Part shown: positions 1-61,430 of the stretch, one piece after another
Numbering within the stretch: position 1 is the stretch's first letter
Layout of the letters: each line of letters begins with the position of its first letter
NCBI RefSeq assembly: GCF_003073045.1
Contig: NC_037597.1
Span: forward strand, 22,892,158-22,956,157
Direction: 5' to 3'
Length of the DNA: 64,000 nt
Source: Pomacea canaliculata
Lineage: Eukaryota > Mollusca > Gastropoda > Architaenioglossa > Ampullariidae
Notes under the pieces: model-generated
Database searches by the model: none
Told to the model about the DNA's origin: nothing
The model's input: the letters and a program-made list of their open reading frames with translations, nothing else
Position numbers and translations under genes: made by a program

Positions 1-567
1 GAAAATGCCTGAAGAACGACTATGAATTTTAAATTTTTAGTTTTTAAACCTACAGTAATTGCACTCTGTGTGTGTGTGTGAAAGAGAGAGAAATAACAAT
101 AAAGCGTAAATGTACAGATCATCACAATCCTGGTGTGTATAATTTAATTTTATTTTAACGAGAATGGAAAGCGTGGGTGGGTGGCAAGTGTTTTGCATGG
201 GTGTGTACAGGAGAGGGTGGGGTTGGGAGAGAGGGAGGGCCAAAGCCGCTTTTCTTTGATGTAAGAGCGTCCATGAGGAGTTCCACAAGAATATCTAAGC
301 TCTCTGGTTTTACTAAGGAGACTGGTTGAGTGGGTGTTACTGTTATATGTTCTTGTGTAGGTAAGCTAAGCATTTCTGTCTAAAATTTTTTTTACAAAAT
401 TCATTTGCTTTAAGTCAGATTTGTATGTGGTGTTTAAATCTTTCGTGTATGTCTGTATAGACGTTGTAAAACATATTTCGTAGTTTTTGTTTACTTACAG
501 CATAACTTCCACGTTACTTTTGTCACATCCATCCGTCGTAGCTGACATACGAGTAAAACTATCTCAC
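1..567 (-). other. Intron at the window edge
   Basis: Intron following the super-unit E EGF-beta exon. It contains a short TG/AG microsatellite at about 66-92 and aligns with 8,222-9,070. No exon was found in it. Confidence 0.6.
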
Positions 568-3500
568 CTTGGCTACAGTTGATGCCTGTATACAGCATGG
601 AGCAGGCACAAACATAGCCAGTGGGGGCTGTCCGCTTGTTCACACAGACACCGCCGTTGAGGCAGGGGCTGGTTTCTTTACAGATGTTGGCTAATCACAA
701 ACAAGTTTAACAGTTTTAGTCTTTGTCCTGAAGCTTAACAAAAGTTTAGAATATCGGGAGAATCGCCATTTCAAGCGTAACTAGGTCAAGACTTTAATAA
801 TGCCACGTGAAGACAGTGACTGTGTTAATGGAAAAGGAAATAATAAAAAAGGGTTTTTTTGTAGTCTGTAATAAATCAGCAAGAAATCTGTATGAGGTGT
901 GACTCACATGAGTTGTTTTCAGTCTCCACTTGAAAACAACGGACCTCTCCATTAGCTCTGTACACATACATCATTCATCAGCAATCGCAAATTATATATT
1001 TAGCTGGTAATATTAATTTTTTTTATTTTTATTATTTGCATTGTTTATTTTCCCACACAAAGGAAGCTCAATGCGCTTCAAAAGAAGTCAGGGGCATGTA
1101 GGGGAAGACGCCATGTAACGTAGTACAAACAACTACAACATACATAAAAGAATATGCACTGGCTATCAATACAAGAACATGAAACAGCGCAAAGAGCTCA
1201 CCCCACAGACATGCAGACGTTCTGTGAGCTGTTGGTCGGCACCAAGAGGACATCCGAGCAGCATGTGTTCTGGTGACTAGGGTTGGTTTTGAAGACGAAC
1301 ACACCGCTACTTGCTGGCACCACCGGTATGCTGACAATCATACAACACAGACATTTGTCATCCCGTGCTTCTGTCTTTCACAGGTGATCTTTTTAAACTT
1401 GTTTGTGCTACTTCGACTAGTTGAAAGGTCAAGCGCACTCAAAGCGGTGCTAAAAAACCGGTTTTTCTTTTCTGAATTTTTCCAAGTACATTTGCGTACA
1501 AAAGTAGTCGATAATAGTTTTTGAAAATTACCAGCTTCCGCTAGAATTCTTTTGCGTCAAGGCGATCAGATGACAAGGCGTGTCCTCGTGACAGACGACT
1601 GTAGTGCCGTCTGGAGGAGTTCCAACTGAAAAGCGACCACTCTGAGACAAAAAGATTTGAGCCAAGCAGTAATTAACTTGAATTATATTAAAAACTAGCA
1701 GGCGTGTAATCGGCATAGTAATGTAAACAGGCTTAGAAGTTGTACAAGAAATTTCTTGTAGTAACTCAACGATACAAACAGATTTGATTTGTGAAAAATT
1801 CAACTTTTAATAATATACTCCAGAAAAAAGGTTTAGTATGTGGTTCGATTATATTTTCTTTACATCACAGACATGAAGATAAAATTAATTTCTTTCCTGA
1901 AGGACTCCTCACTAACGGAGCAAGCAGTGGCACAGATGTGATCGTGAACTAATAGTCAAACCCTAGCAGCAGACATTCACAACAGAAACTGTCTTTACTT
2001 ACTAAGTGGTTTCCTGTGGGACTAACAGATGTTCCTGTAGCAAAAAAGACTCGAGAATAGAGCTAAATTAAGAATTCATTATCTGTAAGTGAGAAAAATA
2101 AAGTTACACACTAATGTATGAATAACAATTTCAAGAACAAAAAAGAGAAAAGTTTCAATAATTTTAAACGGTACTTAGCCCGTTCCGAGCAAACACGAAG
2201 AGCAAGTGTTGCCACGAATTCCACAATCAGTCGTACCTTTTGGTCGACTGTTGATGAAGTAGCAGATGTGGTCGACAGTGTTACTGAAACAGAGAGTAGA
2301 CAATCGTGGTAAGGAACAGACATTAGACTTGCTCAGCCATACTTGGAAGAGAACTGTCTCTACATTTCCCAGCAGTAAACAGATTACATGCTTTCATGTT
2401 AATCATAAATGTCAAAGAGTAGGGTGAGGGCAATAAAATTCAGTTGCATGTACACCTTTCACACGTCACATTTTAGCACGCTTTTGAAAACGACGATCAC
2501 GGCTGACCATAGGTTGTTGGCTATTGCGTCGACCGCTTGCAACTACTACTGCAACCACAGATAAGCAGGTCAAACTCCAAACCTTTCGCCTCCGAGGCTA
2601 GTCCTCAAGCAGGCTACAGGCTTAGGTTTTGATACCTGCTGCTGGGGGTAATACGGCTTACAACTTGTTCTCTTCATTATGAACTCTCTTCTCAACGACT
2701 CTCTCTCTCTCTCACGTGATAGTTCTAAGTTACATCATGCACACACATGCAGGCGATGACACTTTACCACACATGCATGTGGCCATCTGTCGCTTAGAGA
2801 GTAGTACTAGTCTTACACATCGGGTCCTGCGACGTCCACGCACACGTGATGATCGCCAGCTTCCTGTGGCGTCACAGACAGCAATGACGTAATAAGAGGA
2901 ATGCCAGTAGAGTTGTCCTTTACTGGTTGAGCCACATCGGTGACTACCTCAGGAGAGGAAGGTCCCCGGCTCACAGTGAGAGGGAATCTGTACAACGTGA
3001 CTCAATAATTTGCAATTCGGTTTACAACAAAAAATGTTTATAATTTTACTTTTAAGTGTCTGAAATAGTGTCTTTCTGTAAAATATCTCTAGAAATGTAC
3101 ATATACTTACCTCTACAAAGCTTAGCCTTACCGATACATACCAAGCTTTTGCTTACCTTGAGTTCGCGTTGACGTAGACCGGTACTTGGCAGGTGTCGCC
3201 TACGTCACACGTAATCTGCAGACCCGATGGTAGCGTGGGTACCACTGCATGAGGCTGCAATAAGTGAGCATTGATATATTTCTACAAAACAATTCAGCAA
3301 AAAGTTCACGGAAAAAGAAAGTTTTCAGCATCAATTATTTTGGGAAAACCGAGTTAACGTAGAAATTTCTTGATACCACTTACATATTCGCCTTTTAAGT
3401 GTGTACCTTATTTTCTGAGATGCGATGGTTTATTTACTACTGACTTCTGTACAATTATATCCATTTAGTACTAAGCGTTTTACACAGTTGTATTTCTTAT

Positions 3501-6500
3501 CTTTATTCACTACATTAATTTTTTTTGTCATAGAAGTATTACACACTACCTACATAACTATAGCAATAGGTGAATTGTTACCTGTCTTGCACATCACAAT
3601 ATGTAAGCAATGTTATTTGCCACCTTGTTAATTCTGGTGTTTTATTAAAATATTCTCAAAACTTCTTCCCTTACATTTAACTGACCAGCATCTGGGTTGA
3701 CAGGGATGTTTTCGTTTCCTGCAAGAAAATTATTGATTACATTGTGGATAGAATCAAATTTTAAGAGAGTGTTTAGCTTAATTTCTAGCATCGTCTGTAT
3801 GTCAACATTCGCAATATTTTAACCTTTGTATTTTTGAGTTATAAACAATGCAATTAAAAGTAAGTTAAAACTTTTAATGTGTTATCTTGTGACCTAATGA
3901 TATTTTTTTTCTTTGAAAATGTTTCTACATCAAAACTAACTAATATAACGGCTTTAAACTGCACTGATGAACATTCGAAACAATTTAAAGAGACGTAATT
4001 TAAACTGCATAAATCACAATGATGCAGAAGGTCTTACTTGTCAGACACTGAACACCACTTTGTCCAAGGGGGCACAGACACATTGGTTTGGACTGTATCA
4101 GTGTACATTTGGCATCCGCAGAACAGTTGAGAATGGCGCACTTTAGGGACACTTGGTCTAAAAACGGCAAAGCAATTACAGCTTTAGAAATCATACATTT
4201 GCTTATCTTTGTGCAATAGGGCACAGGTAAGAAACATGTGATCTGGATATTATAAATACGAAAGATTAGGGTTTAAGATGATGAAATCTCGAATTCCTAT
4301 GACTGTTAATTACTAGAAAGAATGTATTAGCTAGGATTAAGCATGGTGCTTGTCTTTAGTCAAAATTATTTTTTAATCGTTAACCTGTTGTTGGTGTCAT
4401 GGGAGAAGAAACTGAGAAGACAGCGGTAACACTGCTGTGATCTACACCGGATGTAGTTAGTAATGTAGACGGTTCAACGGAACTTGTGTCTGGGACAACA
4501 TTTGTAAACTTTATTGTTAAACTAAGAATTTTAGCTAGTATCCAATAAAGAATGAGAAAGAACTAGCATCCACAAGACGCTGCTGCTGTAGTAGATCACG
4601 AAAATTATAGACAGTAAACGAATGTTAAAACTGCAGTATTTATAAAAGAAAACCAATTATATGCACAAGCAAACTTAAGTAAGACCTGATTTTGGTGGAT
4701 TCTAACAAATCGTAATGTAGAGATTTTATGGTATTTGTTTCAGACAAAAAAAATAAAAATAGCATATCTACCGACAAAGTAATGTTGAAACTATGGTATT
4801 TATTAAAGAACGGAAATTGAAAAACTAAGGGTAAAACTACTTCAGTTGTTCATGTTATTTAATCACCTTGCTCATCGCAGTGACCGTTAGCAGAATATTG
4901 CGCTGGACACGCGCAGACGTAAGATGGAGGCGTGTTTATGCACTGTCCTCCATTGTGGCAGGGGTTCACGGCACAAGGGTCATCTGAAACATTCCTTGCC
5001 GCTATCAGAGTATGCAAACTAATGAACACAATCGAGTAACATCACCTGCAGTCGTACTGTCAAGACCTGTGTCGGTGAACGCAGTTCAGGAAATGAAGCC
5101 TTCACTATGCCTCTACCCCGACATCTCTTGTCGCTAAAAACACTCACTGCCACTTACTGCTTAACATTTTGGGCATGATTAAGATCGTTGCCAACGACGA
5201 AGTCGAGCTGAAGTTGAGTACTGTCTATCCTACTTTTTCTGCTACCATTCTTTTGTCATCACACTTGCTTGCTCTGTAGTAGTACTGCTTTGTAACAAAG
5301 TACTGCTATAATTTTTCATAACATTTGTAAACATATAAACATTTATTGTTCCGCATGGGGCCATCTTCTTCACTTACTTGCATCGTCTACCAAGGACACT
5401 GAGTAACAACGTGTCTCTCCGCCGAACCTGACATTTAAAAGAGCAAAGGAAATCAACTTACAAACTAGACCCGACAATATATCGGTATTAATGATCATAA
5501 ATACTAATATACACCTATTAGCTGCATCCTCAGGGTGCCAGTATGTGCTCTACGGTTAGGTTTTGAATGCAATACCCCTGGACCCTTTCATTGTGTTTTT
5601 TTACCATCATTAAATACAAAGGTATTCTAGACACGTCAGGAAATAAAGCCAACAACTATTCTAGAACATTCTAAAATGTGTGCGTAGAGGGAAGGATTAG
5701 TGTCTGTAAACAGGAGTAATGTGCCAATACAAGAGATAAAATAAATAAAGAGAAATAATACCAATAACAACATACTCACCCAGCCTCAGTGCACACTTCT
5801 CGACTTCCGAGAGTGGGTGGGTCTATCAACATGACGGTGCCACAGGTGGAGGAATCCTCGCGCAATGTCTCGAAGGTATGCACTCCCCAACCGAAAGGCT
5901 GAACAGGTGTGCTTGAGAAGAAAAATCGTCATCTTTTACTCTAAACTTCAGGTGTGGCACTGAGGTCTGAACGAAAGTACAAGTAGTCGTCATATTTGAA
6001 CTAGACCTTCTCAGTCGCTTGTCGCCGAAAAATATAGCACTGCGCGTGCGTGTACTATCTTTTGTGCATGTGTGTTCGTTAAGCAGAGCAGTTTTTTTTT
6101 ACACCAGGCTAGTCACTTCAGTAGAAGTGTGTTTATCAGACTCACCAGGGAGTGTTGGCAGGCTGTTCAGTGTGGGATATGAAGCGGCAAGGTCTTGAAG
6201 AATGACAAACTATCTGTGAGCCGTTTGCTGGTGTAGTGTCCGCGAAACGGCCTACTCCCTGCCAGCAGGTCAAGTTTCATGCATGAAAAATGTCTGAACG
6301 CTTAGCGAACTGTCCAGATGTTTAGACTTCCAAAAGAGATATAAACGCTTTTTTAATTGGTAAAGAAAAAATAATGTTAAGCTTTTTTTCACCTTCTGTG
6401 AAGGAGTGTATGTTGATCCTCCGTGTGTAGGTTGGACTGTACTTTCGCTGCTGGTCGACCCTGCAAGCAGAGCCAGCACGACAAATAATCAAAAACATGT

Positions 6501-9500
6501 TACAGAAATTTGCATGTTGTATACCTTATAGGCCAGTGAGCAGCCTCTGTTTTGGTTGTTTGTCATCTTTTATATTTTATGTCTCTTGCTCTAGCAAGTG
6601 CTCTTGTGTTTACACACGCTGACAATCGTCTGCTTAAATGACTCCTACCTTGTTTAGCTACGCTGTTGATCAGGTAGCAAACAGTGTCGGAGCTCACACT
6701 GGAAAGGAAACAAGACATACTTATATACAGGTAACCTTGTATTATTTTAGAAGCAAAACTAGCTAGAAAGATCCGACCATCAATAAACATGAGCAAGAAA
6801 TCTGTAGTTTTAAATGAAAATAATAAAAAGTATGTAAATAAACACCGCAGCTTAAGAAAGTTACTGTTTGTAGCTTTGGAGGTAATATTTCGCCCCAAAG
6901 ACGAAAATTTATTGAAATATATTATTTTAGTCTAATCAAACACAATGAAAAACGAGACATACCCGCTTTGCTCTTTGATGTCCACACACACATGATGCTG
7001 GCCTGTTTCCGAGGGTGTGACACTAAGAGTTGACCTCAGGCCGCTTGGAGTGCCTGTAATGTTGTCCGGGTGGGGATCAGAAACTGATGACGTCAGTCCA
7101 GGCGATGATACATTTGTGTTGACACCTGGAAAGGGTCTGTTGCAAAACACGAATGTGACATTTATGGGCAAGTTTTGACAAAACATCCAACCAACGAGCA
7201 CAGGCAAAAGAAGTTTGGTTTGAGCATAACTGTAATAAGCTAGAAATTATCTGGTCAGCGATATTTTTGATTTCACATTTTTTGGTGGGTTTTTCATGGA
7301 ATTACTCTGAAGGATGGGTCTAGAGTAAATAAAATAATAATAAAATGAATTCTTTATTATTAAAATTAGAGTGCATAGTAAACAAATTACAAATCGAAGA
7401 ATTCTATCTGGATACAAGAACAGGCACAAATATTAATCGGTTAATTTGAGATGGTACCCGACTTGTCAGGAAAGGAATGTGGCGTAATTATATGCGATGG
7501 TTTAGGCTAAACTCAATGAACCCCTGTCATTCATGCTGTAGGCACCAGGCTATAACTCTTCCATATTCCTCTATTTGTCTCTGCATCTCTTTATATGTAT
7601 TTAAATTTAGTAACATGAAAAAAGACATAAAAAAAAGAGAAGAAGCGACGAGATAAGGAAAGGCAGAACTATAAATTTACCCTAATCGGGGACCGACCAT
7701 GTAGATAGGTACACGACAGGTAGATCCGACGTAGCAGGTGATGTTGAGACCAGTTGGTGGTGTGGGTATGATGGCGTGAGGCTGACAGACACAGCAACCA
7801 GGAGCTGGTTAGTTCCCTTACCGACCGAAATGTCGAATGCACTGTCTGTCTGGTTGTATGGGTAACATGTCCTCAAATGCGTTGTTTTATCTATAAAAAT
7901 CTTAAATTCTATAAGTCGTAGGAATTTATTCTCTCTGCAACGCCACTATTTCGAACTTGTTGAATGGGCAGTTCAGCTCATTAATCAGTCTAGTTCAATA
8001 AGTTCAGAGATTGTCAAAACAAGACTAAAGATGTTTAGCAAACAAAAATTTAAAAACAGCAATCGCAAGTAAAAGCATGCAGACAATATTGAACAGCCTA
8101 AGCTTTGTAAAAAAAACTCTTAAAGTAGCCTTTGAATCCAAACACATTACCTTATTAGTGATAACAGGTTTGTTCAAAGGAATCGCTTGATTTTCTGTGG
8201 ACAGAAATGGAAACAAATACCGGAAACTGCCTGAAAACCGACTATGAATTTTAAACGTTACAAATTGTTAATTTTTAAAACTACAGTAATTGCGGCCTTT
8301 CTCTGTCGCTTTGCTTACTATACGACTATCTGAATAAGTGCTTGTGCTAGAATAAAACGTGAATGTAGGAATTGTCACAAACCTGCTGTGTATAATTAAT
8401 ATTTTTTTAATGACAACAGAAAGCGCGAGCGGGTGGCGAGTGTTTTGCGCGTGTGTGAGACGGGTTAGGGGAAGACAAGCGAGGATATAAACAGTTGATA
8501 ACGGTATCTTTTACTTTGATGTAACGGCGTCCTTGAGGAGATCTATTAGTATAAATGTTGATGCTCAAAAAATGCAGTAAAGGAAAATGATTTTTGCTTA
8601 GAGCTGGTGTCCTTGCCAGGAACAAGTAGAATAACCTGACCGTTGTGAGTCTGCCCAGGTTTAGGTTTCAAATTTTTGTAATGCAAGTTTCGGATTGTAT
8701 TTTTGTTGTTGTTAGGGAATAGTAATAAAATGTATTGAAATGATTGTTGTGGGTTTGTTTTTCTTTTACTCTCCTGTGATTGACATGGACAGTCACTCTG
8801 AAACTAACTTCAAGAGGAGCGACAACAGCGAAAGGGGGTTACTGTATGTGTTCTTGCGAAGTCAAGCTAAGCATTTCTGTTTCTTGATTCTTTTCCTAAT
8901 ATTACATTCATTGTTTAAAATCAGATGTGTGGTATTTTAATCTTGCGTGCATGTCTGTATAGACGTTGTAAAACATATTTCGTAGTTTTTGTTTTTCTTA
9001 CGGCTTAAATTCACACATTACTTTTTTCTCATCCATCAGTGGTAACTGACATATCAGTAAACATATCTCACCTTGGCTACAGTTGGTGCCTGTGTACAAC
9101 ATGGAGCACGCACAAACATAGCCAGTGGGGGCTGTCCGCTTGTTCACACAGACACCACCGTTGAGGCAGGGGCTGGTTTCTTTACAGATGTTGGCTAAAC
9201 ACAAACAAGTTTAACAGTTTTAGTCTTTGTCCTGAAGCTTTTCAAATGTATAGAATATCGTGAGAATCGCCATTTCAAGCATACCTAGGATTTTACCGTC
9301 TTAATTTAGTTAATATTTATAGTCATTAAACAAATTCAGCACAGTTTTTACATGTCTAGTACTCAGATAAAAATGCTTTATATTTAGCCTGGTCCGGTTT
9401 CCTGCGCATCAAGACTTTAGTAATGCCACGTGAAGACAGTGACTGTGTTCATGGAAATGGAAATAATACAAAAACCGTTTTTTTGTGGTCTGTTATAAAT

Positions 9501-12500
9501 CAGCAAGAAATGTGTACGAGTTTTGACTCACATAGTTGTTTTCAGTCTCCACTTGAAAACAGCGGACCTCTCCATTCGCTCTATAAAGATACATCATTCA
9601 TCAGCAATCGCAAACTACATATTAACTTATTATTATTAATTATTATTTGTTTTGGGCATTTCCCACACGAAGGCAAGCTCGATGCGCTTCACAAAGGTTC
9701 AGAGGCATGTAGGGGAAGACGCCGTATAATGTAGTCGTCACAATCGAGTACAAACAACAACAACATGCATAAAAGAACATGCACCGGTCATCAATGCAAG
9801 AACATGAAAGACCGCAGACAGCTCACCCCACGGACATGCAGACGTTCTGTGAGCTATTGGTCGGCACCAACAGGACATCCGAGCCGCATGTGTTCTGGTC
9901 ACTGGGGTTGGTTTTGAAGACGAACACACCGCTACTTGCTGGCACCACCGGTATGCTGACAATCATACAACACAGACATTTGTCATCCCGTGCTTCTGTC
10001 TTTCACATGTGCTCTTTTTAAACTAGTTAGTGCTACTTCGACTAGTTAAAAGGTCAAGCGGACTCAAAGCGGTGCTAAAAACCAGTATTTTCTTTTCTGA
10101 ATCTTTCCAAGTACATTTGCGTACAATAATAGTCGATAATAGTTTTTTTAAATTACCAGCTTCCGCTAGAATTCGTTTGCGTCAAGGCGATCAGATGACA
10201 AGGCGCATCCTCGTGACAGACGACTGTAGTGCCGTCTGGAGGCGTTCCAACTGAAAAGCGACCACTCTGAGAGAAAAGATTTTAGCCAGACAATAATTAA
10301 CATAAATTATATTAAAATCTAATAGGCGTGTAATTGGCATTGTATTGTAAACAGGCTTAGAAGCTGTACAATAAATATCTTGTTGTAACTCAGCGATAAA
10401 CACAGATTTGATATTTTAAAAATTCGACTTTTAATAATATACTCCAGAAAAAGGTTTAGTTTTGGTTACAGTTATATCTTCTTTGCATCCCAGACGAAAA
10501 CATAAAATTAATTTCTTTCCTGAAGGACTCATTAACGGAGCAAGCAGTGGCACAGATGTGATCGTGAACTAATAGTCAATCCCTTACAGCAGACATTCAC
10601 AACAGAAAATGTCTTTACTTACCATGTGGTTTCCTGTGGGACTAACAGATGTTCCTGTAAAAATAAAGACTAGTTCAAATAAGAATAAAGCTAAATTCAT
10701 GAGCTGTAAATGTGAAAACTAAATGGTTTCACACCAATGGATGAATAACATTTTGAAGAACAAAAAGGAAAAAAGTTTCAATAATTTTAATCGATACTTA
10801 GCCCGTTCCAAGGAAACACGAAGAGCAAGTGTTGCCACGAATTAATCCACACAATCACTCGTACCTTTGGGTCTACTTGTGATGAAGTAGCAGATGTGGT
10901 CGACAGTGTTACTGGAACAGACAATCATGGTACGTGACTGTTGTTAGCTATATCATGCGCACATTCAGGAAATAACATTTTATCCCACATGCATGTGGCC
11001 ATCTATCGCTTAGAGAGTAGTACTAATCTTACATATCGGGTCCCATGACGTCCACGCACACGTGATGATCGCCAGCTTCCTGTGGCGTCACAGACAGCAA
11101 TGACTGCATAAGAGGAATGCCAGTCGAGTTGTCATTTACTGGTGAAGCCACAGCGGTGACTACCTCAGGGGAGAAGGTCCCCGGTTGACAGTGAGAGGGA
11201 ATCTGTACAACGTGACCCAATAATTTGCAATTCGGTTTACAACAAAAATGTTTATAATTTTACCTTAAAGTGTCTGAAATAGTGTCTTTCTGTACAGTAC
11301 ATATCTCTATATATATACTTACCTGTACCTTAGCCTTACTGATACATTGTGTTTCTAGGTGTGTAACGAAGATTTTGTTTACCTTGAGTTCCCGTTGACG
11401 TAGACCGGTACTTTGCACGTGTCGCCTACGTCACACGTAATCTGCAGACCCGATGGTAGTGTGGGTACTACTGCATGAGGCTGCAATAAGTGAGCATTGG
11501 TATATTTCTACAAAACAATTCAGCAAAGCGTTCACGGATGACAAAGTTTTTCAGCATCAATTATTTTGGGAAAACAGAGTTGACGTGGCAATTTCTTGAT
11601 GCCAGTTAAACATTTTCCTTTTAAGTGTGTACCGTATAATAATAACAATAAGAACAAAAACAATAATATTATTATTTTAAAATTTGTAAAGCGCATATTA
11701 ACACTTCTAAGGAATATGCTCTTAGCGCTTAAGAAGAAGAACGAAACATGGACAGCTTACGAGGACAGGGAAACAAACAAATAAAATGAATTATAAAAGA
11801 ATAAACAACCGTACTAAATGAAGAATGAAATCAAATACAGAAAACACAAAGATGAACCAAATAGCAAGAACACGAGCTAAGATTAATATGATATTGCAAA
11901 AGAAAGGGAGTGAAAAAGGACTAGCATTTCGAAAAGGTTGTTATTAAAGATAATAATAATATTATTAATTATTATTATGTGGGAATTTATAAAGTGCTAT
12001 ATCTCAGGTAAAGGCAAACTGATTGCGCTGAACAAGACCACAAAATAGAAACAAAAATGTAGAACAAGTTAACAAAATTGTAGCAAAGATGTAGAAGGAA
12101 GAACAATGCGAGGACTCGCTGCATTCCGCCAGTAAAGGGGAGATCACTGTTGATGTAACAGTAACGACTCCAGAGAATAAGGTCAGTGACATTAGGAGAA
12201 TACTGGAATACTATACTGAGTATTCTTAAGAATATGAAGAAATGTTATCATATTAAACTGCAAAAGGGTGATCATCACTTCAGCTTATTAACTGCAGTTT
12301 AAGGTCGCTGCCGAAGCGAGTGAAGCGGGCGGAATGGAATTCAGCCAATAGATCTAAACAGTTCGCACTTCAAATAACGTTTAATACACACCTGTTGCAA
12401 ACCCGACGAGGAAGAAAACGCAGCAAAAGCACATGTACAAATGAAGGTCTAACATTTTTATCCAATTCTAAACACGACCACGAAAAAAACCCACACCAAA

Positions 12501-27500: not shown

Positions 27501-30500
27501 GTATTGCGACTATGAGATACTGAACAATAATAATAATCCCGCAGGGAAGTTAGCACTTCCCCCTTTGGAAAAAGGTTTCTCATGAAAATACTTTCAGACC
27601 AACGGGCTATGTTCTCGCAAGTACACACACGCACACCGAAGGACACACAACCAACATTTCAGTCACAACGATAAGGCAGCTTTTACTTACCGTGGGGCTT
27701 CTTGTCGTATTTTTGGATGTTCCTATGAAATAATATTGACATAGATAATAAATAAAAAGACCGTGCAGGGAATATACATATAGATACACACAGGCAATAA
27801 ATTTGAGAACGAAAATCATACAGAAAAAATCTTAATGAACTGGCTTTTTTAATGACAAAAAGGCAACAAGTGGCAGCACGAGTAGACTGTAGTTTCGAAA
27901 CCAATACCCAGCCCGTTATAAGCAGGCGTGCATGTACCCAGAATGGCATGTCACTCATGCAAGGAGACATCTGACTGTCTCGTACCTTTGGGTCGAGTGG
28001 TGATGAAGTAGCAGATGTGATCGACAGCGTTACTGTAACAGATAGTAAACCATCGCAATAAAAACAAGCATAACATCTCTGAGCGAAAGTCTCAGTCTTT
28101 CAAAACACATTCTGATGAAAATTTATTCAGCAATCAGCAGTTTTATTGTTCATGATGATTGGTAAGACGCGTCTCTTTGAGGAGAGAAATCAAGTGAACA
28201 GCATTCATGCCTTCTCTTAACTATCCTTTTCTCAAAACGTTGAGACTAATAATTTATTGGTTAGGAACTCTTACACATCAGATCCCACGATGTCCACGCA
28301 CACGTGATGATCGCCAGCTTCCTGTGGAGTCACAGACAGTAACTGACTTCACAACGGAAATGCCAGTAGAGTTGTCCTTTACAGGTGAAGAGACAGCGGT
28401 GACCACCTCAGGAGAAGAAGGTCCCCGGTTGACAGTGAGAGGGAATCTGTTTAAAATTATGCATTCAATTTTTATAGCCCTTTATATGCGCATTTATTAT
28501 TTGTTAAAATAGCCTAAATAGCTCGCTTGCAAAAATGCTCATGGTGTTCAAAACTACTGACAGACTTTATTACTCCTTTTCCTTTGGTTACCTGGGATCT
28601 CCGTTGACGTAGACTGGTATTTGACATGTCTCTCCTATGTCACAAGTAATCTGCAAACCCGATGGTAGTGTCGGTACCACTGCGTGAGGCTGGAATAAAT
28701 GTTGGCTTTTAATAATTGTATGGAAATAGTTATATAAAATGCACAAAACATGTAAACAACACACAGATGGCTAGTTTTATCATTTGCATCTCCTGAAACT
28801 TTTATTCACCTATTGATTTAGTTTCAGGTTCAACCAAGAAAAACAAAAAATGTTGTAAGCAACCCAAGTCCGATTGCATGCCAGAGACGAACTTTTCTCA
28901 CAAGCTGATATTAAAAATGTTATCAGTTCTTATTTACACTTACCTGTGTAGTGTTTGCATTGACAGGAGTGTCTTCGTTTCCTGCGAAATAAATTTCCCA
29001 TTTCAAACAAGATGAAACCAACTTACATATGCAACTGTTACAAAACTTCTCAAATTTTTACAATAAAGAAATATGTCGCATTTTTAATATAGTGTTTGGA
29101 CTACAAAAAAAATGAAGTGAAAATTTTTTGGTTTGTTTTAATCAGTAGCCAGGAAGGAGTAGAGTATCTTACTTGTCAGACACTGATCACCGACTTGTCC
29201 TAACGGGCACAAACAAACCGGTTTGGACAGGATTAGTGCACACGCAGCGTCCGCAGAACAGTGGAGGATGCTGCACGTGAGAGGGTCTGGTGATGAAGGC
29301 TAGCGGCGTGGAAGCACTGACGTAATCACTGCTCGATGAGGTCACTGACGATGACGAAGAAGCTCCTGTCTCAGAGCCTAATGATGTCAGTTGTGACGTC
29401 AGAGCTGATGCAGTTGTGTCTGTAATCGTCATGCAAGGCAGTGGATATTTACAGGAATAGTTTTCTAGGAACTGTAAGAGTAAGCAGACGAGAAATGTAA
29501 ACAATGTGAGGCTCAAAGTTACCTGCTGTGTCGCAGTTTGGGGCCACAGGAAATTGCGCTGGGCATGCGCAGGAATAAGGAGGAGTTGATTGTGGAGTGT
29601 TGATACATTTGCCTCCGTTCTTACATGGACTGGTATTACATGGATCGCCTGTAAATGTGTTTACATGTAAGAGTTTGTAAATGTACTAATGACAATTTTT
29701 AAAAAAATCACTTTTAATGTTAGTGTGATGGAATTGGACGGTGGTGGAGAATAGATTTGTTTTGAAAGTATGTCACACCGTCCTAATTTTCTACTATCGA
29801 AAAACGACGTATTTATTTGTAAAACACTGTTACTACAGCAGATTTACCGTTTTCCTTCCATCTGTTTAATCCAACTGACGCTAAATTAAAAAAAAACACC
29901 TGGAACTTGTTTACAGATCTGTACGTCTCAAACACTTACTTGTGCTGTCTACTTCTGCCACCTTGTAACAGCGCCTTTCTCCGCCAAACCTGATGGAACA
30001 ATTTAAATAAAATCAATCAACAACAAATCAAAGCTTCCATTTCTTTTTATTATTACTATTGTTGTAATAGTAAGTAAAAGTTACTACTTAGAGAATATAT
30101 ATATATATTACTTAGAGAATATATATATATATTGCTCTCTCGTGCGCGTGTGCGTGTATATAACAGTTCTATTTCACGTCAAAAAATAAACATCAGGTTA
30201 TCAATTGTCGGTACATTTCACACTAAACACAAAAATACATGTTTCCTTACCCAACTTCCATGCAGGCTTCTTGGCTTCCAAGTGTATGCGAGTCTACAAG
30301 CATGTTCGTACCACACGTGCTGGAGTCCACTTCAAACGTATCAAATGCGTACACACCTACAGCTTGGGACCGTACAGGTACACTAAACAGTATGGTACAC
30401 TAAACAGTACAGGTACACCGAAGCAGTGTCATCTTCACACACTCATGTGCACTAACTCCTACCCTTACAACACGCGTACAGTCAAACGTAGGAACAAAGC

Positions 30501-33500
30501 TGCTTATTGTACACAGCTACAAGAAAGAACAATTTATCAGTTTTAAAATGGTTCTTGTTGTTGTAAAGGAAGTTTGAAAGACGCACCAGGAACCAGAGGC
30601 AGGTTTCACGGTGTAGGCGACAAGCCGGCATGGTCGTGCGGAAAGAATGGCAGACGATCTGAGAGCCGTCTGGTACAGACGTTGTAGCGAAAGTACCTCC
30701 TCCCTGTCATAATAACTGACCACATTTATAACTTATCTGATAGCTTGCGTATACGACAGTCTAAGTCACTTGTTAATATGTAAACTGTACATTAATTCTT
30801 CTAATGCATGTACCGTGTTGTGCAGGACGCGCCAAACACGTGACACATACAGTTGTGACAATGGAATGAAATCAGAATGAAGCACCCTGCTGTTCGTCAC
30901 TCACCTGTTTTGGCGCAGTTGTTGTAGACTCTCCTACACCACCCGGTGTGCTTGATCCACCACTTCCAGATACACCTGCAAAGTTTGCATGTTGCAAGTA
31001 ATCGTACAGATTTTAATTTTTCTGGTTAGAAAATCTGAGGTTTTCGGTATTCTGGTGATGCTTCATAAAAAAATTTGTTTTTACTTTGAGGATCCATATT
31101 TCGATTTTGACAGATATAACAACTTGGCAGACGACATTATACACTGCATTGTACTCACTTCCAGGATCCTGACTGGTTATAAGGTAACACACGCTGTCTG
31201 TGTCTCCGCTGCAATTAAAAATGTCAATAGTTTTCATTACATGACTGATGATCAAAAATCGATTTTTGTTGCATCTCATGTGTAGAAAGAAGACACTTAT
31301 GGACGGCGATGAGCAGCCTATTACAGTCTAAATGCACTCCTGGATTCTCTACAAACTGCAGAAACATTATGTACACGTACGCGCCAATATTTCCATCACT
31401 TCTTAAATTACTGATATGACATCTCGCAACGAATTTCCAAGAATATTCCCCGAGATAATTGAATGTATCAGCTGGCTATTACTGAAGAATATCGAGAACA
31501 GGTACAGCAAATAAAGAACAATATACATTGGACTGAACTATGGTCATCTAGTCGTCCCCACAATCCATCCTAATGTGTACTCTGACCTGTCGAGAGGACA
31601 ATCCATGACTTAGCAATAGTCAATCATACCTTGGCGGGTCGTGAAGCTGCACACACACGTGGTGTTGACCGGCGAGGCTGGGGGTGATGCTTAGTACGGA
31701 CTTGAGGCTGGAGGCTGGGCCGGCACCGGAGTCCGGCTGTGGAACTGACATGTCTGACCTCAGGCCTGGGGTTGGTAGAACTGTGGTCACTGTCGCGGTG
31801 ACCTGAGAGAAGGGCAAAACGCAATCCTTACCTGAGATGTGACAGCAGACTAAGCAAAATTCAAAGTACAGCCGTTTCATATCCAAGTTAACACTCCTCA
31901 CCTATCGTATTTTTTTCACTTAATGCACAATATTTGTTTTTCCCTTTGCTTACTTTAGCGATCCAGTGAAAAAGACAGGTAATTTACAGGTAGTCCCCAC
32001 TTCACAGGTGATATTGAGTCCAGTTCCCGTCGTTGGCACTATGAGATGAGGCTGCAATTTAGGCGATGCAGTTTTTGGTTAACAATTTTTCTTCAACACT
32101 TAGCAGTGAATAGAATATATTTCGTTTCAGTTTATGGTCGTTTAGTTTTAATTAACAATAGTGTCATTGTATTCTTCTTGCCATCTTCAGGCTGTCTTTA
32201 TGCATTTTTATCAGTCAAACAGGGCCAGTCTGATTATAACAGTTGTAAGTATTACTTAGTTTCTGTAACATGCCTGAAATAGCAAAGGTTACTCGAAAAG
32301 TAACTTCTAATATAATAGGTTAATGCAGAAAAATGTAGATTAGTGCAAACAGTTATATGTAAAATTTAAATAATCAAAACTATTTATAGTTTGAATTGTA
32401 AGTAAAGCTGGTATAGTTACCTTGTCAGTAGCAGCTGACTTATTCAAAGGGATATCCAGTTGTTCTGTCGACAGAATCACGAACTGTAGCATTCGCTTCA
32501 GCTCTAACTTTTTAAATAATTGCAATATACTTGGTAAGGCGCCAGTTAAACGACACGTAGTTAATTTTAAACACTTTTAGGCCTTAAATCTATTTATATG
32601 TGCAAGACAGGTTTAGAACTTGTTTAACTAAGATTTTTTTAAAAATTTTGAATAAGATAAAGCTCTTTCAGCCAGACTTTCTTTTCCATTGGCACAACTT
32701 TTCGTACAACACATTTAAATGTAACAATTTTGCAAAAAATAAAAGAATGAAAGGTTTCGAAATTTTTTTAAAAGGGTTTTAAGTTTTGAAACATGATGTG
32801 CAACTAGCCCCAGAGACACAAAGACTCAGCAGTTATTACCGCCTATACAAGGAAATAAAAGACTGCTCACGAGTTTGACATTTGTCGCCCTGCCAGCCCC
32901 GGATGACACTCACAGTAAGGCTGAGAATCCCTCAACAGGCAGATCGAGTTGCCATGGCACACCATCTGTTGACATTTTTCTGGCTCTGGTCGCACGAAGA
33001 GAGATTCATGAAGTTTAGACATATGATAGAATGGGAGGACAACAGTGCGCATGTTGGAGTGCGTGCGTATGTTAATGTCTGCCTCAGTAGCAATGTCACA
33101 TTGTGATTACACAGATTATGTAGATGATCAGAAGCAAGATGACGAGGAGGAATAACAGAAGAAATTGCTACTATTCAAGACAGACCGTAGCGGCAGTCGT
33201 CGCTGCTGTAGCCTGGCTGACAGTCGCAGTGGAAGCCACGGTTGTCGCTGACGCACACAGCGTTGTTAAGACAACGTTTGTCTGACAGTCACCCACTGCA
33301 CGGCAAAGTTTAAAAAAGTCATGGTCAAGCCTGTACAAATGATCACTGATGTCACAAATAATTATACAAAGGGTTCATTTGTTTGTTTGTTTGTTTTTGT
33401 CAAGTGACTAACATCGCTTAGGTAAGCATACCATCATCACAGTTGTCTCCTTGTAAAGGCACGGGACACACGCAGACGTAGCCATCATGCTCTGTGAGCT

Positions 33501-36500
33501 TGTTTAGACACACACCATTGTTGTGGCAAGGGTTTGATTTGCATGCGTCCGCTGTCAACACCAAAACAATTCAGGTCAAACAGATGAGTAGAAAAAAAAT
33601 ACTGATTTAGAAGTTTTATAACATTTACAGTAAACTGAAGTTATTATTGCATCGATTTTGTTTTCTGGTTTCAAATAAAATGGTGTCTTTCGAGAATCAG
33701 TATCTTATTGCTCTTAACTTACTCTGGTTGTTTACGGTCTCCACGTGATAGCAGCGCCTCTCTCCCCCATTTCTGTTTTTTTTTTTAAATATACAAAAAG
33801 AACAGAAAAACACATCTCATTAAAAAGCCACCAGCCATAAAACTAAGTAAACTGAATTTTGAATTTTTATAACAAAAATTTACTACATTCTGTGTCACGG
33901 TTAAAATTATCTCTCGGCCCACTGTCAATTTATCCTAGATTCTTTCATTCGACCTAAGCAATATATCTTTGATGGTCTGAAGGGGCGCAACTAGTTTTTC
34001 TAATGACTGCATAAAGCTTGTAGAAAGAAGCTGTTTCCTATAATCTGGGTAAATACCCAGTTCGTTATCAAGATATATGTATGCCAACCACAATTCACAG
34101 GAAGCCCCAGCCAGCGAAAGAGTTAAGGTCATGTACAAACCTGACGTCATGATTTTGATCTCTTTCTGCACGGTACACGGTGATGTTTGTAGGGACATGT
34201 CTTGAGAACGGCAAGAGTGCAAGTGTACTTGCCTATATTTTTTTATAAGAGTATCTTGTATTGAGCTTTATCCGCTCATTAGGAAAAAGAAACATGTAAC
34301 AGGCTAGGTCTTTAAACTGTTTTCACTGACCCTACAACAAGCAGACATCTTGCGACGAGTTGACAGGCGTGAATAGCACGTCCGAGGCACACGTGCTGTT
34401 ATTCCCGAGGACTGTTTTAAAGACGACAGCACTTCCAGTTGCCGGTCTTACTGACAAACTAAAGGAGATGAGTTTATTAGAATCGAGAGATATAAACGAG
34501 AGGCAAACTTAACAAGGCAGACATATACCGTCGAAAACAAATGGTTACTTAATTAGACAATGAAAATTTGATAGGAGTTCAAAATAAAGATTTCATGAGT
34601 AAAAATACTAATCGATCTTCATCGGTTTCTAGTTTATGTGTTACATTATTGGATTATTGGATTCCTCATTATTATGACGTAGAACACAATGGCTTGCGTA
34701 CAAACAACTTCAATCTGTTAAGATTTCGATATTATTTGAAAAAAAATAGTTTTGAGTTCTGATGGTTAAAATGAAGATACAATGGCGCCATTTTCATAGA
34801 AATTTTTCGCGCTCAGCATCTCTGAACTGGAGATATTCAACTCACCAGCTGTTCGTAGACGCCTGCGTCTGTGCAATGACATGACAGGGCAAGTCAGCAT
34901 GACACGCTATGGTCGCGCCGTCTGGTGGAGTACCGGCGGTGAAAAGGCCACCCTGGTAACCAACACTATTAATAGAATGACTACACCAATGGCTAACAAG
35001 CTTAGATCGATCGACTACACACCATTTTCTCTTTTCCCTTTCTACAATGAGGTAGCCATTACCATTGAGGATTATACACGTGAGGTGATGAATCGGCTTC
35101 CAAATAAAACTAATTTTGACAGCATGAACCTGTTCCAATACCTGCTGGCCTCTAGAACTATTTGACGCGCGCAAGAACACATACAGACACACTTATACAC
35201 GACTGTGTACTCACTGTGGGCGGAGTGGGACCTGCAACAGAGACGTCTCGAAATTAGTTCTGTAGTCGATGAGTGTCTGTTATTTATGATTTCAAAATAT
35301 TCATGTAACAGTTTGCCATGAGTATTAAAATGTATCATACACTCTTGCATGAGGATCAAACTCGGGATTGATTATTCTTTCGTTTCCATATATATTTCTT
35401 CCAGCCATCACACAGTTGCTGTGGTACGTTACAAACTTCCTTTTCAACATGATAGACTCGACTACTTTCCCATCTTTGTTTCATAAACAGCGTTTAAAGA
35501 GATTTGCAGGTTAGGCAAAGCTGTGTTTCACAAATGTAGGGTGGGGAGCTCTTATAAGATCCTTACACAGAAAAAGGTTAGCACCCACACTACTCACTGA
35601 AATCAAGCACCACCCTCCATCCATAAATGGCTCACATAGTTGTATTAAAAGCCTGGTGACCTATTGACCTCACTCAGTCGTCGTAGGTTAAGAATCACGA
35701 ACTCGTTAAGGTTAAACTCGTCCGGCATTTCAAATTAGACATATCAATGCAATATGTGGATGAATGACTGGCACTATTCTTACGACTGCCGCTACAGTTT
35801 CTACTAGTGTGAGGATCTCACCTGAACTGTTCTGACTCGTAATCAGGTAACAAAGCTGTTCCACGAATTGTCTGGAAGAAACAAGAAGGGGAGAAAGATT
35901 TAGCATGTTACAATTTACCAACAATGATAAACAATCGACGAAAGCACCCTGAAGGAAAACAGAAGATTGAGGGAGAAAGAGGAGAAAGCAAAGCATCAAG
36001 GCAGGTCTTACTTCTTGGGGTCAAGGACGTCGACGCACACGTGATGATCTCCTGCTTCCTGCGGCGTCACGGAGACTGATGACGTCAGAGTGGTCAAGCC
36101 TGTGGAGTTGTCTGTCACTAGCGGAGATATTACCGTGGCTATTTCTGGAGACGATGTTCCTCGGTGTACCGTTGGCGGGGAGCTGAGAGGAATGTTTGTT
36201 TAGGTAAACAATATTTATAACAGACTTCGGACTTTGCTTGGAAAATCAAGTTTATCTTGATAAACAACAATAACAGCCTTGAAAGAGTTTGTCTATCTAA
36301 AGCCATGAATTAGCCATACTTTAAACTTATTTCACCATTATAGTATTTCAGCTGTCCCAAACACAAATGACCTATTTTAATCAATCAATCATTCACACCT
36401 CATATTTCCGGTAATGTAGAGTGGTATCTGACACGTGGTTCCTACGTCACAGGTTATCTGCATGCCAGGTCTGGGAGTGGGCACAGTAGCGTGGGGCTGA

Positions 36501-39500
36501 TATGTTTATAGAAAACAAAATAATCACATAATGAATCTCACATAATCTGCTTCTGTTATAAATCTTTTCCAGAAATAGTTTGATTTATATCGCAGCAATG
36601 AGTAACTAAACTTTCCCTTCACGTTTCTTTGCTCTGCATTAGAGATACTACGAGAACGAGAAAAAAAGTTAACCAGTAACTAGACTAAATAGCCACAGTT
36701 AATAAATAACATTGTTCCTCTTTCCGGTTTTAGTTGCATTATTTACTGCATATCTTTCTATCCTCAACACATCTTAAACATCCTCATTGTGATCGCCGTC
36801 TTTGCCATTAGTTATAAAAAATCAGACAAAATACTTGAGTGAACGACGAAGAAGAAGAAGAAGATAAAATACGTCCGTAAATATTGTAATAAAATATTAC
36901 ACATTGTTTTGAGACGCAGCCGTGGCTGTATCGAATATTGGTCATACCTGCTGCGAGGTTACACTAGAGTTTAGAGGAATGTCTTCTGTTTCTGAAAGAC
37001 ACAATATCTTTATTAGACAAAAAGTGCAGTCCTGAAGTTATAAAATTCTGAAGAAGCTATAGCTAATTTACACAGATGTACAAGTCTTAAAACTTTCAGA
37101 AAAATGCCCCCTCCTTTTGTCCCAACACACACACACACAAGTGAGTTAAAGTTTACCCGTTTGACAATACTCCCCACTCTGTCTAGGAGATAAAGACAGA
37201 CATATTCCACAAGAGAGCTTACTGATGTAACAATATTTCCCTACTCTGTTCTAGAGAGCAAAGACAGACATGCTACATGAGAGTTTACTTGTTTGACAGC
37301 GTTCCCTGGCCAGTCCTAGTGGACAAAGACAGACAGGACCGGACGCGATGATCGTGCACACTGAGTCGTAGGAACAGTTGTAGTCAGCACACGGTTTTAG
37401 AACTGTCAAAAGATAGCAGGGCGTTTAGTTACCCAATCGGTCCGATAAAGCCTGACGTGCCGATTAGCTAACGCGCCGATAGTCCTCGCGATAAACGAGC
37501 ATGCAGGGACACTCCGATAGGCCTCCGATAACTATAGGCGCAAGGCTAAAAATAGCTTTCAGGAGCGTTCCCGCTCTTCCTGTGTTACTGCGCATGCGTT
37601 TGTTTAGAAAATCGCATACTTCCTGATTCCTGTTGTCTTCGTCGGGCAGAAGTAGAAATAAATCGCGCGCAAAAAGCAAAACAAAACAAAACGTGAATTT
37701 CTCCGCCCTAGAGACGATTTCATTAGAAGAAATATGGACAGAAAAGAGTTTTGTCATTTAGTTTATCTTACAAGATAAATAAAATAATAAAAGTAAAATA
37801 GCGAGAAGTTTCAGCAGTTGCTTTTCGGTTAGGACGGTGCAGGAAATTAAATGGGGATGCTAAAGCGAGCAGCTCTGTAATAAATAAAAATGCCCCCCTC
37901 CAAATAAAAATAAAAACAAAAAACCAAAACAGACGGTAGCAATGGAATACCACAACCGAAATTTTAATTCAAAGATAACGAACCTACAACTGAAAATAAT
38001 TAGGCTAATGGCTTACAAGATGCTGAACAAGAAGTATCAATAATTCACTTATTGAGTACCTGTCGCACTTGAGAAAGTGCTGCACCTTGATTTCAGAAAT
38101 TCATCTGCTGCTGTAATCGAGTCGGTCAATTCTAAAATATCCTCTCTCCTAAATTTGAATTTTTTGCAAAACTTCACGTCGTCATAACGGTCCAATGGAT
38201 GATTCCTATCTCGACAAACGAGTTCTCGATCCAATACATGCCATCTGATGCTTGTCGGTGCAATAGCGAAATAACGGAAGGGGAGTTAATGGTAAAGGTA
38301 GAGGCTGTCGGGGGCTCCCTGCATACCAACCGCATTTATAGTTGTAGTAACATGTAATCGAAACTAAATTCTAAGAAATACTCGCCAATGTCAACATTGA
38401 AGGTAATATTATCTTTGGGATATTTAGTCACGAACATTTTAATTGCCTGTAAAATATTCATGTTTTTAGAGCAAGAAGTGCAACAAGAAGTTTAATTAGC
38501 TAAAGACAATGATCATTAGAGTGCAAGATTATTGGTACATATTCTGTAGTGTGTCATCTGTTATATATATATAACAATTCTATTTAAGGAAGCATTAGTA
38601 TAAAATGAACTGAAATACACAAATACATTTCTATGTCACAAGACATTATCGCCAGTCTTATCTAAAGGTGTTTGATAATGCTTATTTTAGTGTGTCTGTA
38701 ACCCGATGTGTGCTAATGATTATCTGTGTATCGATTCAAAGTAACTTCCTTTTATTATATGGATATAAAATTATTTCTTATTTTATGTTTAGCCTGTTAT
38801 GAACACAACTCCCATGACATCTAATCTCCCGTAAAAAAAATACTTTCATTCATTTTTCTTTCCACCTCTGAGCATTAGCTTGATACATATATAGCTTAAA
38901 ATTTAGAGAATCAAGTAGAATGTTCGGTGAAAAAACATTTGACTAATTGAATTTTCCAGGTGATAAAACTCACGTGTGTCGCAATTCTCTCCGCTGTAAG
39001 CAGCCGCACACTGACAGTGATAACCATTTACTTCGTCGATACAAACTCCATTATTGTGGCAGGGGTTACTCTTGCAGTCATCAATGTCTTGACGGTCAAA
39101 AAAAAAAAAAGGAAAAAAAAAAGCTTGTTAAGCAACATTTTGTTGTTTTGGAGAACGATTTACTAGCATTCTTGAGGTTTCCTAACTTTGATTTACAGAA
39201 TGTATTATTATCGAATTCCACATCAATTCGATAGAAAACATTAATCATTACACATTTCAGCAAGTATTTAATAAAGGTTCCTACAGCCATCCACAGCTAT
39301 AGAATCTCACACTTTAATAGCCAGCACTAGCTGATGATAGCAGTACGCTATGTTTTCTTTCAGCTGGGTAGCTAAATCTCACTTTAAGCATTGATGTTAG
39401 AAATAGGTAGAGATCTAGTGAACAAATATTGTTTTAATGGAAATTGGCGATAAATCGGGCGATGAGGTGGTTGGTGGTGCAGTGGTCAAAGCGCCTGTCA

Positions 39501-45500: not shown

Positions 45501-46580
45501 AAAATATTATTTCCTAAAATCTGGTGAATATTTCCCTTCCCCTTGCTGCTCTCGAGATACACGCCTTCAAACATCATCAACACAATAAGATCAAAATCGT
45601 GACGTCACGTTTGTACACACGTACAATTAACATATTAACGTTGAGTCCCAGCTTTCCTCTGGCTAAAGTGTTCACATTGTGAACGTCTCCATTCACTACC
45701 TTAGTGTATGTGCTTGGTGATGTCTGTGGGCGTGAATCTCGAAAAAGGAAATTTGGGAAAAAGTAGTTTGCACTGAGTCCAGTCATTAGAAAAACACTTT
45801 AACCCAGCTAGTCCTTAATATCGTTGTGCATAATGACAAGAGGAGCGATCTTCTCTGTTTTTACATTTTAAAAAAAGTGTCGCGTACCAAAAGAAAAAAA
45901 TTATGTGAATTCATGCGTCTGCCAAACATAATATGGGAAACGATAATTGCCTCTTAGTTACATTCTTGTTATTGATGATGTTATGTACACTTATCTTCAC
46001 ACAGTACAACTTGGTAAGCACACGGATTTAGTCAAAATCACCTGAATGTGCTACCTTCTACACCAGGGTCTTATACTGGAAGATTATAGGACCTTGTAAT
46101 ACAGTACTTGATCTTACACGGTTCTAGAGTTATATAACAAGTCTGTATAAATAAGATATGTACTTGTGAAACAATATCAACAATAGTTACATGTAATTAT
46201 GATCACCTGTACAGTGGCTTATACAGCACAATGGGACTAGTGTTAGGACGACCAGTGTCGTTGCGTATTTGAGGGCGAACCTTGGACTGTATGTGAAACT
46301 CAATATCGCCTTTCCCATTCAGACTGAAGCTTTTCCAGAAACTGCCGCTCACACTGTTACACGAAATCACTGAGGTAAATTGTTATACACTCACTCACTC
46401 ACTCACTCACTCACTCACTCACTCACTCACTCACTCACTCACTCACTCACTCACTCACTCACTCACTCACTCACTCACTCACTCACGCACGCACGCCACG
46501 CACGCACGCACGCACGCACGCACTCACTCACTCACTCACTCACTCATCACTCACTCACTCACTCACTCTCACTCTCACTC

Positions 46581-46617
<37 letters not shown>

Positions 46618-61330: not shown

Positions 61331-61430
61331 NNNNNNNNNNNNNNNNNNNNNNNNNNNNNNNNNNNNNNNNNNNNNNNNNNNNNNNNNNNNNNNNNNNNNN
61401 NNNNNNNNNNNNNNNNNNNNNNNNNNNNNN
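61331..61430. other. Assembly gap (100 N)
   Basis: Exactly 100 N, the customary placeholder for a scaffold gap of unknown size, at the 3' end of the minisatellite. The true array length is therefore unknown. Confidence 0.98.

Follow-up and report, generated by a model that had tools for sequence, protein, structure and literature searches.

Introduction

Nested duplication within a gene is a known mechanism, as in CR1, nebulin and LPA, and the gene of the snail Pomacea canaliculata that is described here is a further case. The gene lies on the minus strand in and beyond a stretch of 64,000 nucleotides (C8:22892158-22956157), which is called the window below, and it contains an array of large repeated exon blocks, the super-units, in which EGF exons alternate with exons of two module types, I and II.

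The size alleles of CR1 come from unequal exchange. In this protein, 30 small modules are arranged in four larger repeats that derive from a duplicated seven-module unit (PMC6883348). CR1 resembles the snail gene, the topology of which is predicted, in being a single-pass surface receptor with nested repeats, but the CR1 modules are SCRs, whereas in the snail gene EGFs alternate with two unfamiliar module types and the super-unit is an internal doublet; the snail gene is not a member of that group. By contrast with the snail gene, nebulin is an intracellular muscle protein with actin-binding repeats, having neither an EGF nor a membrane anchor. It is built of seven-module super-repeats, with eight exons repeated three times and varying in copy number (PMC7109182). 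Super-repeats together with a further level of block copying are what it shares with the snail gene. In LPA, KIV-2 is an intragenic multi-exon array flanked by single-copy KIV types, for which exchange between copies was suggested by the authors (PMC4378929). The snail gene likewise holds an intragenic array of multi-exon units, but the LPA unit has two exons and 5.5 kb and is highly polymorphic with 1 to >40 copies, whereas the snail unit has 20 exons and its copies, seen in one assembly, are old.

With Notch, Delta and the coagulation factors the likeness is in the EGFs only, modules I and II being outside those families, and in the 672 residues searched no other defining domain of these proteins was found. 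An EGF beside a mucin domain occurs in several mucins. Transmembrane mucins are like the snail gene in having Ser-rich tandem repeats before a C-terminal anchor-like exon, but they differ in that SEA and VWD were not found in the snail C-terminal exon and that most placed snail exons are of EGF, I or II type. Among the literature matches listed there is no account of the snail gene itself. In this work we propose, with a probability of roughly 0.8, that the locus is a single gene on the minus strand, which encodes a long single-pass surface glycoprotein and has grown by three nested steps.

Results

Exon cycle of the super-unit

The strand and the exons were determined by six-frame self-comparison and by splice-site dynamic programming with loose thresholds, followed by class-by-class placement, with the flanking sequence of the window included (negative coordinates lie beyond window base 1); genome searches were made in the assembly of 440,159,624 bases. 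The gene is on the minus strand, with its 5' end at the high coordinates. The self-comparison of the window gives offsets of about 7.5-9.8 kb and their multiples, with 70-97% identity among the listed matches of at least 90 bits, and this repetition is not due to chance.

In one super-unit (numbered U1 to U6 from the 5' end) the order is EGF_A, linker, I (exons a, b, c), linker, II (a, b, c), EGF_B, linker, I', linker, II', EGF_C and a Ser/Thr exon, with the phase cycle EGF 1-1, linker 1-0, a 0-2, b 2-2, c 2-1, linker 1-0, a 0-2, b 2-2, c 2-1. This order and cycle had been claimed by an earlier reading of the sequence, referred to as the original prediction, and they were recovered in each super-unit. 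In the window 85 cycle exons were placed, a count that leaves out the Ser/Thr exons, the extra EGF frames of U1 and the N-terminal exons; AG/GT edges are present in 85/85, the length fits the phases in 75/85, and 0/75 of the latter contain a stop. With the flanks included, the numbers are 104/104 for the edges, 94/104 for the phases and 0/94 for stops. Note that the edges were picked among AG/GT sites, so that the AG/GT figure is not independent, while the equal lengths across units are. All of the phase-fitting exons (94/94) join into 11 stop-free runs totalling 2805 residues, and from U4 EGF_B to U5 EGF_B 21 consecutive exons, one of them a Ser/Thr exon, give an unbroken reading of 672 residues.

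The halves of the doublet are distinguished by exon length in the way the original prediction had it, with 171 nucleotides (nt) in Ib versus 174 in I'b, 107-110 in IIa versus 113 in II'a and 123-129 in IIb versus 132 in II'b, length-shifted exons aside; the IIa exon of U6, with 113 nt, breaks the rule. A closing EGF and a Ser/Thr exon had also been predicted for each super-unit, and the Ser/Thr exon is plain by sequence in U3, U4 and U5, with weak splice scores in U3 and U4, while those of U1 and U2 are doubtful. Of the five super-units predicted at 1..37402, the fifth is only cut by the window edge and is complete in the flank. A further half unit, U6, comes after it with EGF_A, I, II and EGF_B, so that the array runs past window base 1 and comprises 5.5 super-units. 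Between successive units, only 236-709 bases separate EGF_C from the following EGF_A. Two peculiarities of single units were seen. Two extra EGF-like frames, the edges of which are not settled, lie at 33281-32871 between EGF_B and the I' linker of U1 alone, and in U3 alone the second linker and II'a form a single exon (15312-15165), by in-frame intron loss or internal deletion. The features of the array are as follows.

37289..37402, minus strand, U1 EGF_A (1-1)
35822..36991, minus strand, U1 linker 36948-36991 and module I (Ia 36399-36496, Ib 36012-36182, Ic 35822-35871)
33723..35231, minus strand, U1 linker 35185-35231 and module II (34846-34952, 34336-34458, 33723-33772)
33432..33551, minus strand, U1 EGF_B (1-1)
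32871..33281, minus strand, two further EGF-like frames, U1 only, edges uncertain
31159..32464, minus strand, U1 linker 32421-32464 and I' (31954-32051, 31630-31802 length shifted, 31159-31208)
29940..30975, minus strand, U1 linker 30905-30975 and II' (30587-30703 length shifted, 30251-30382, 29940-29989)
29523..29648, minus strand, U1 EGF_C (1-1)
29330..29419, minus strand, U1 Ser/Thr exon, doubtful, edges uncertain
29173..29286, minus strand, U2 EGF_A
27986..28981, minus strand, U2 linker 28944-28981 and module I (28592-28689, 28275-28446 length shifted, 27986-28032)
26611..27722, minus strand, U2 linker 27691-27722 and module II (27299-27408, 27001-27129, 26611-26660)
26186..26308, minus strand, U2 EGF_B
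24325..25877, minus strand, U2 linker 25834-25877 and I' (25349-25449, 24621-24794, 24325-24374)
22981..24058, minus strand, U2 linker 24003-24058 and II' (23686-23799 length shifted, 23402-23533, 22981-23030)
22446..22562, minus strand, U2 EGF_C
22208..22261, minus strand, U2 Ser/Thr exon, doubtful, edges uncertain
21726..21841, minus strand, U3 EGF_A (length shifted)
20427..21528, minus strand, U3 linker 21485-21528 and module I (21083-21180, 20730-20900, 20427-20473)
18680..20158, minus strand, U3 linker 20127-20158 and module II (19598-19706 length shifted, 19000-19128, 18680-18729)
18288..18409, minus strand, U3 EGF_B (length shifted)
15547..17861, minus strand, U3 linker 17818-17861 and I' (17345-17445, 16736-16910 length shifted, 15547-15596)
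14392..15312, minus strand, U3 II', linker and II'a fused (15165-15312), 14759-14890, 14392-14441
14034..14150, minus strand, U3 EGF_C, in which the youngest duplicated block has its 5' edge
13572..13676, minus strand, U3 Ser/Thr exon (1-1), weak splice scores
13225..13338, minus strand, U4 EGF_A
10865..12904, minus strand, U4 linker 12861-12904 and module I (11383-11480, 11033-11202 length shifted, 10865-10911)
9532..10654, minus strand, U4 linker 10623-10654 and module II (10157-10266, 9827-9955, 9532-9580 length shifted)
9072..9194, minus strand, U4 EGF_B
6649..8194, minus strand, U4 linker 8151-8194 and I' (7681-7781, 6963-7136, 6649-6698)
5378..6460, minus strand, U4 linker 6393-6460 and II' (6146-6258, 5780-5911, 5378-5427)
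4867..5001, minus strand, U4 EGF_C, chimaeric exon
4881..4913, minus strand, unequal-crossover interval, 5' side like U5 and 3' side like U3, from informative sites
4385..4489, minus strand, U4 Ser/Thr exon (1-1), weak splice scores
4038..4157, minus strand, U5 EGF_A
2237..3718, minus strand, U5 linker 3675-3718 and module I (3157-3254, 2817-2987, 2237-2283)
908..2034, minus strand, U5 linker 2003-2034 and module II (1532-1641, 1202-1330, 908-957)
568..690, minus strand, U5 EGF_B
window-relative -28 to about -11454, minus strand, U5 I', II', EGF_C and Ser/Thr exon; U6; Ser-rich repeats; anchor-like exon

The doublet and the super-units

The trees of the modules were made from the concatenated DNA of exons a, b and c, with shifted exons as they stand, having 11 rows for each type with the flanks and 9 rows without them. 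With the flanks included, the six I copies are split from the five I' copies (support 100/98) and the six II copies from the five II' copies (support 100/100), and modules at the same position in different super-units are closer to each other than modules within one super-unit. Sisterhood of I and I', or of II and II', within a unit was rejected in 10/10 approximately unbiased (AU) tests with the 11-row set (p 0.0064 or less) and in 8/8 with the 9-row set (p 0.0092 or less), type I of unit 1, with p 0.0054 and long branches, being a weak case. These results support that the doublet arose before the super-units were amplified, in agreement with the original prediction that EGF-I-II was doubled once and the doublet was then amplified, for which this very phylogeny had been named as the check. 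The EGF tree is weaker, where the A copies cluster (86/81) and the B and C copies form no clean groups. In the half-unit trees the end branches are longest in U1 and U6 and shortest in U4 and U5, as is expected if the units multiply within the array.

The youngest duplication

The homology between U4 and U5 covers exons and introns over the whole 20-exon block, with blastn giving -3398..205 versus 4865..8457 at 88.5% and four blocks within 332..4993 versus 8834..14160 at 82.9-86.8%, and both of its outer edges fall in EGF_C. All other unit pairs align in exons only, plus stretches across the short Ib-Ia intron at 70-73%. Thus, a block duplication that includes the introns is seen for U4/U5, while the older pairs retain the exons and at most that short intron.

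In the intron 5' of U4 EGF_C the informative sites that are U5-like and U3-like number 236 and 13, respectively; within the exon they number 14 and 1 at 5001-4900 and 2 and 7 at 4899-4867, and in the 3' flank 21 and 248. The similarity therefore switches at about 4913-4881. Because the U5-like 5' side changes to the U3-like 3' side inside the exon, the junction is, as judged from these sites, an unequal crossover between two EGF_C exons near 4881-4913. The 5' part of U4 EGF_C is within a 103-base exact match to U5, the longest exact match between the blocks being 172 bases. It had been predicted that blocks starting and ending in phase 1 keep the frame when copies are gained or lost; the phases of the cycle are as stated, but in the one duplication that can be resolved the frame was kept by homologous exchange in EGF_C instead.

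The U4/U5 introns are 13% diverged, to be compared with a heterozygosity of 1-2% given for P. canaliculata (PMC6129957), and on this ground the assembly shows an old U4/U5 duplication rather than a current polymorphism. A recent change of copy number was considered as well and was set aside, the youngest pair having this 13% divergence in its introns.

Origin of the modules

Modules I and II have the same phases (0-2, 2-2, 2-1) and align at their cysteines. The comparison of their profiles gives an expectation value (E) of 0.0005 at 20% identity, and 0/200 column-shuffled controls reached the score (maximum 20.6 versus 25.8). It is likely that the two share an ancestor module, which would be the third and oldest level of the nesting.

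The EGFs match PF00008 (61.6 bits versus the cut-off of 21.5, in four stretches), and among solved structures the EGF exons match EGF domains in chains of Notch, Delta-like proteins and coagulation factors. Module I has no match over the cut-off in Pfam; the Filamin/Ig-fold family PF00630 gives 15.7-17.7 bits versus 26.9 (E 0.007-0.03, 2/6 members), which is only a hint that type I may have an Ig-like fold. For module II no Pfam family was found at E up to 5 (0/7 members), in a search where the HMMER filters drop most weak matches. Neither module gave anything significant in the PDB. In the rest of the genome outside the locus the type I query has no match better than E 0.28, and the query of II' plus EGF has only matches that cover the EGF part or have E above 0.1; a scan of viral contigs with the type I alignment found no relative.

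Length shifts and selection

The ten cycle exons of the window that do not fit the phases are U1 I'b, U1 II'a, U2 Ib, U2 II'a, U3 EGF_A, U3 IIa, U3 EGF_B, U3 I'b, U4 Ib and U4 IIc. The alignments show 8/10 of them to be off by one base, the two in U1 being less clear. Between U4 and U5, the identity is 94.3% in exons and 86.9% in introns (Ser/Thr exons counted with the introns), and the alignment of 1900 exon bases contains two gaps of one base each, which are both in U4. With the rates of nonsynonymous (dN) and synonymous (dS) substitution computed from intact exons only, U4-U5 gives dN 0.034, dS 0.104 and dN/dS 0.33 (16/19 exons, 471 codons), and five other unit pairs give dN/dS 0.18-0.40; of the 7/15 possible pairs that were tried, U5-U6 is saturated and has no value. 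The assembly was made with smartdenovo on PacBio reads and corrected with Pilon using short reads (PMC6129957). Because of the absence of stops, the low dN/dS and this method of assembly, the best account of the ten length shifts is assembly error, that is, they are most likely uncorrected long-read errors.

Ends of the gene

Upstream of the array there are two EGFs, diverged a and b exons and an ATG exon like a signal peptide (48234-48073), as follows.

48073..48234, minus strand, probably the first coding exon, with ATG and a hydrophobic start like that of a signal peptide, phase 0 at its end, by eye and hydropathy
43922..44067, minus strand, diverged module exon a (0-2), N-terminal, by hidden Markov model (HMM) of Ia exons, E 0.013
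43581..43757, minus strand, diverged b exon of a module (2-2, 177 nt) with EDAGYY, weak, by splice sites and phase only
41834..41934, minus strand, diverged Ia-like exon (0-2, 101 nt), by HMM, E 3.5e-4
39978..40106, minus strand, EGF exon upstream of the array (1-1)
38974..39087, minus strand, EGF exon upstream of the array (1-1)

After U6 there are Ser/Gln-rich tandem repeats with a period near 90 nt, and then an exon that encodes a hydrophobic stretch, directly succeeded by RRLK, and a short tail. Elsewhere in the genome nothing matches this anchor-like exon well, the next hit having E 1.8, and the C-terminal exon, the one exon tested, shows no SEA or VWD domain against Pfam. Down to -50 kb, blastp and the exon HMMs detected no additional module, weak matches aside. 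As there is no N run from -50 kb to window base 61330, the array is within one contig.

Several other observations were made around the gene. The Ser/Gln-rich repeats are at window-relative -9618 to -8487, and the reading frame changes within them, possibly by an assembly indel. Microsatellites of CACT and ACAATA (46388-46633 and 46918-46984) lie between the first two placed exons. Upstream of the 5' end of the gene is a GC-rich minisatellite of about 61 bases at 55685-59034 and 61182-61328 (66-69% GC, the region having 35-46%), which adjoins an assembly gap of 100 N (61331-61430). On the plus strand, about 22 kb beyond window base 1, an EGF exon at C8:22870013-22870117 belongs perhaps to a neighbouring EGF gene.

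Discussion

Based on our model, the growth of the gene would have proceeded as follows. One three-exon module with its linker would have given rise to modules I and II, and then the block EGF-I-II would have become EGF-I-II-EGF-I'-II'. Finally, a block of about 20 exons and 9 kb, made up of the doublet and the EGF and Ser/Thr exon that close it, would have been multiplied by unequal crossing-over from within the array, which would leave the end units U1 and U6 most diverged and U4/U5 youngest, with the U4/U5 step being an exchange inside the homologous EGF_C exon. The predicted protein would begin with a signal peptide, followed by diverged modules and EGFs, and after the 5.5 super-units it would have a mucin-like stalk rich in Ser, a single transmembrane segment and a short tail, with all of the exons presumably in one transcript and the membrane topology being a prediction.

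Several points weigh against this model. The exons from 43.5 to 40.1 kb, and those from the Ser-rich repeats to the anchor, were not placed with confidence. A cysteine-rich stretch of U1 EGF_A reaches the same 19-residue hydropathy, 1.77, as the best value in the anchor, and because of this tie within the array the anchor call leans on its place and on RRLK. The hhalign probability for I versus II is only 31%. In the tree of type I long branches meet (I_1, I_6 and Ip_1, with a warning from the program), while in that of type II only II_6 is long, and the order of U2 versus U3 has a support of only 56-69%. As assembled, 10/85 exons of the window (10/104 overall) are out of frame, and the frame also changes in the Ib exon of U6 and in the Ser-rich repeats.

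The last point could be taken to mean that the locus is decaying, a partial or complete pseudogene in which the ten shifts, together with the frame changes in U6 and the Ser-rich repeats, are real. This is unlikely, for all 94 phase-fitting exons are free of stops, the single-base shifts (8/10) are of the type of uncorrected long-read errors, the correction by Pilon would be expected to fail where the mapping of short reads is ambiguous, and dN/dS, taken from intact exons, is well below 1 in all six pairs that have a value among the seven tried. The same small indels, which are frequent in the array exons, could also raise the suspicion that the units include haplotype copies or wrongly joined repeats and that the true copy number is smaller, since the reads are noisy and the snail is heterozygous (PMC6129957). 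Such an artefact is highly improbable, however: the introns of even the closest pair, U4/U5, are 13% apart against a heterozygosity of 1-2%, the other pairs match in exons only, the stretches across the short Ib-Ia intron (70-73%) aside, and the array is in one contig with no N run from -50 kb to 61330. That some exons near the ends were not placed would also allow a row of neighbouring genes that start and end separately; this is very unlikely, because the units are 236-709 bases apart, open runs pass through the array, and a signal-like start and an anchor-like exon are at its two ends, although no search aimed at starts, promoters or poly(A) sites within the array was made.

It is rather unlikely, though less so than these, that the similarity within classes is explained by gene conversion after an early amplification and not by late amplification of the doublet. 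The dS of U4/U5 (0.10) is below their intron divergence (0.13), and the dS of U2-U5 (0.35) is below that of U3-U4 (0.50) although U3 is nearer; because of these two patterns, some exchange without change of copy number is likely. By contrast, introns shared over the whole 20-exon block and a single junction in EGF_C are the mark of block duplication. For the older unit pairs, the present data do not distinguish conversion from duplication.

For the single gene grown by nested duplication, as proposed above, a role as a cell-surface adhesion or recognition protein, or as a component of the glycocalyx, has about an even chance, judged from the architecture. The reach and valency of the predicted protein would scale with the number of units. 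A bolder proposal, which we regard as doubtful when taken as a whole, is that I and II form an undescribed extracellular domain family, with four to five conserved cysteines and three exons, and that the gene encodes a length-variable snail surface receptor, the unit number of which changes by exchange in EGF exons, with individuals or populations differing in reach and valency.

The array suggests that gene models in such arrays are unreliable in short-read-polished assemblies, and it points to an extracellular module type that is missing from the Pfam copy searched. It is a record, on three levels, of how a giant modular protein is assembled, and one of the steps has been narrowed to an interval of a few tens of bases within an exon. 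This step shows that homologous exchange in a repeated EGF exon, and not only shuffling through phase-1 introns, can add a block of 20 exons in frame.

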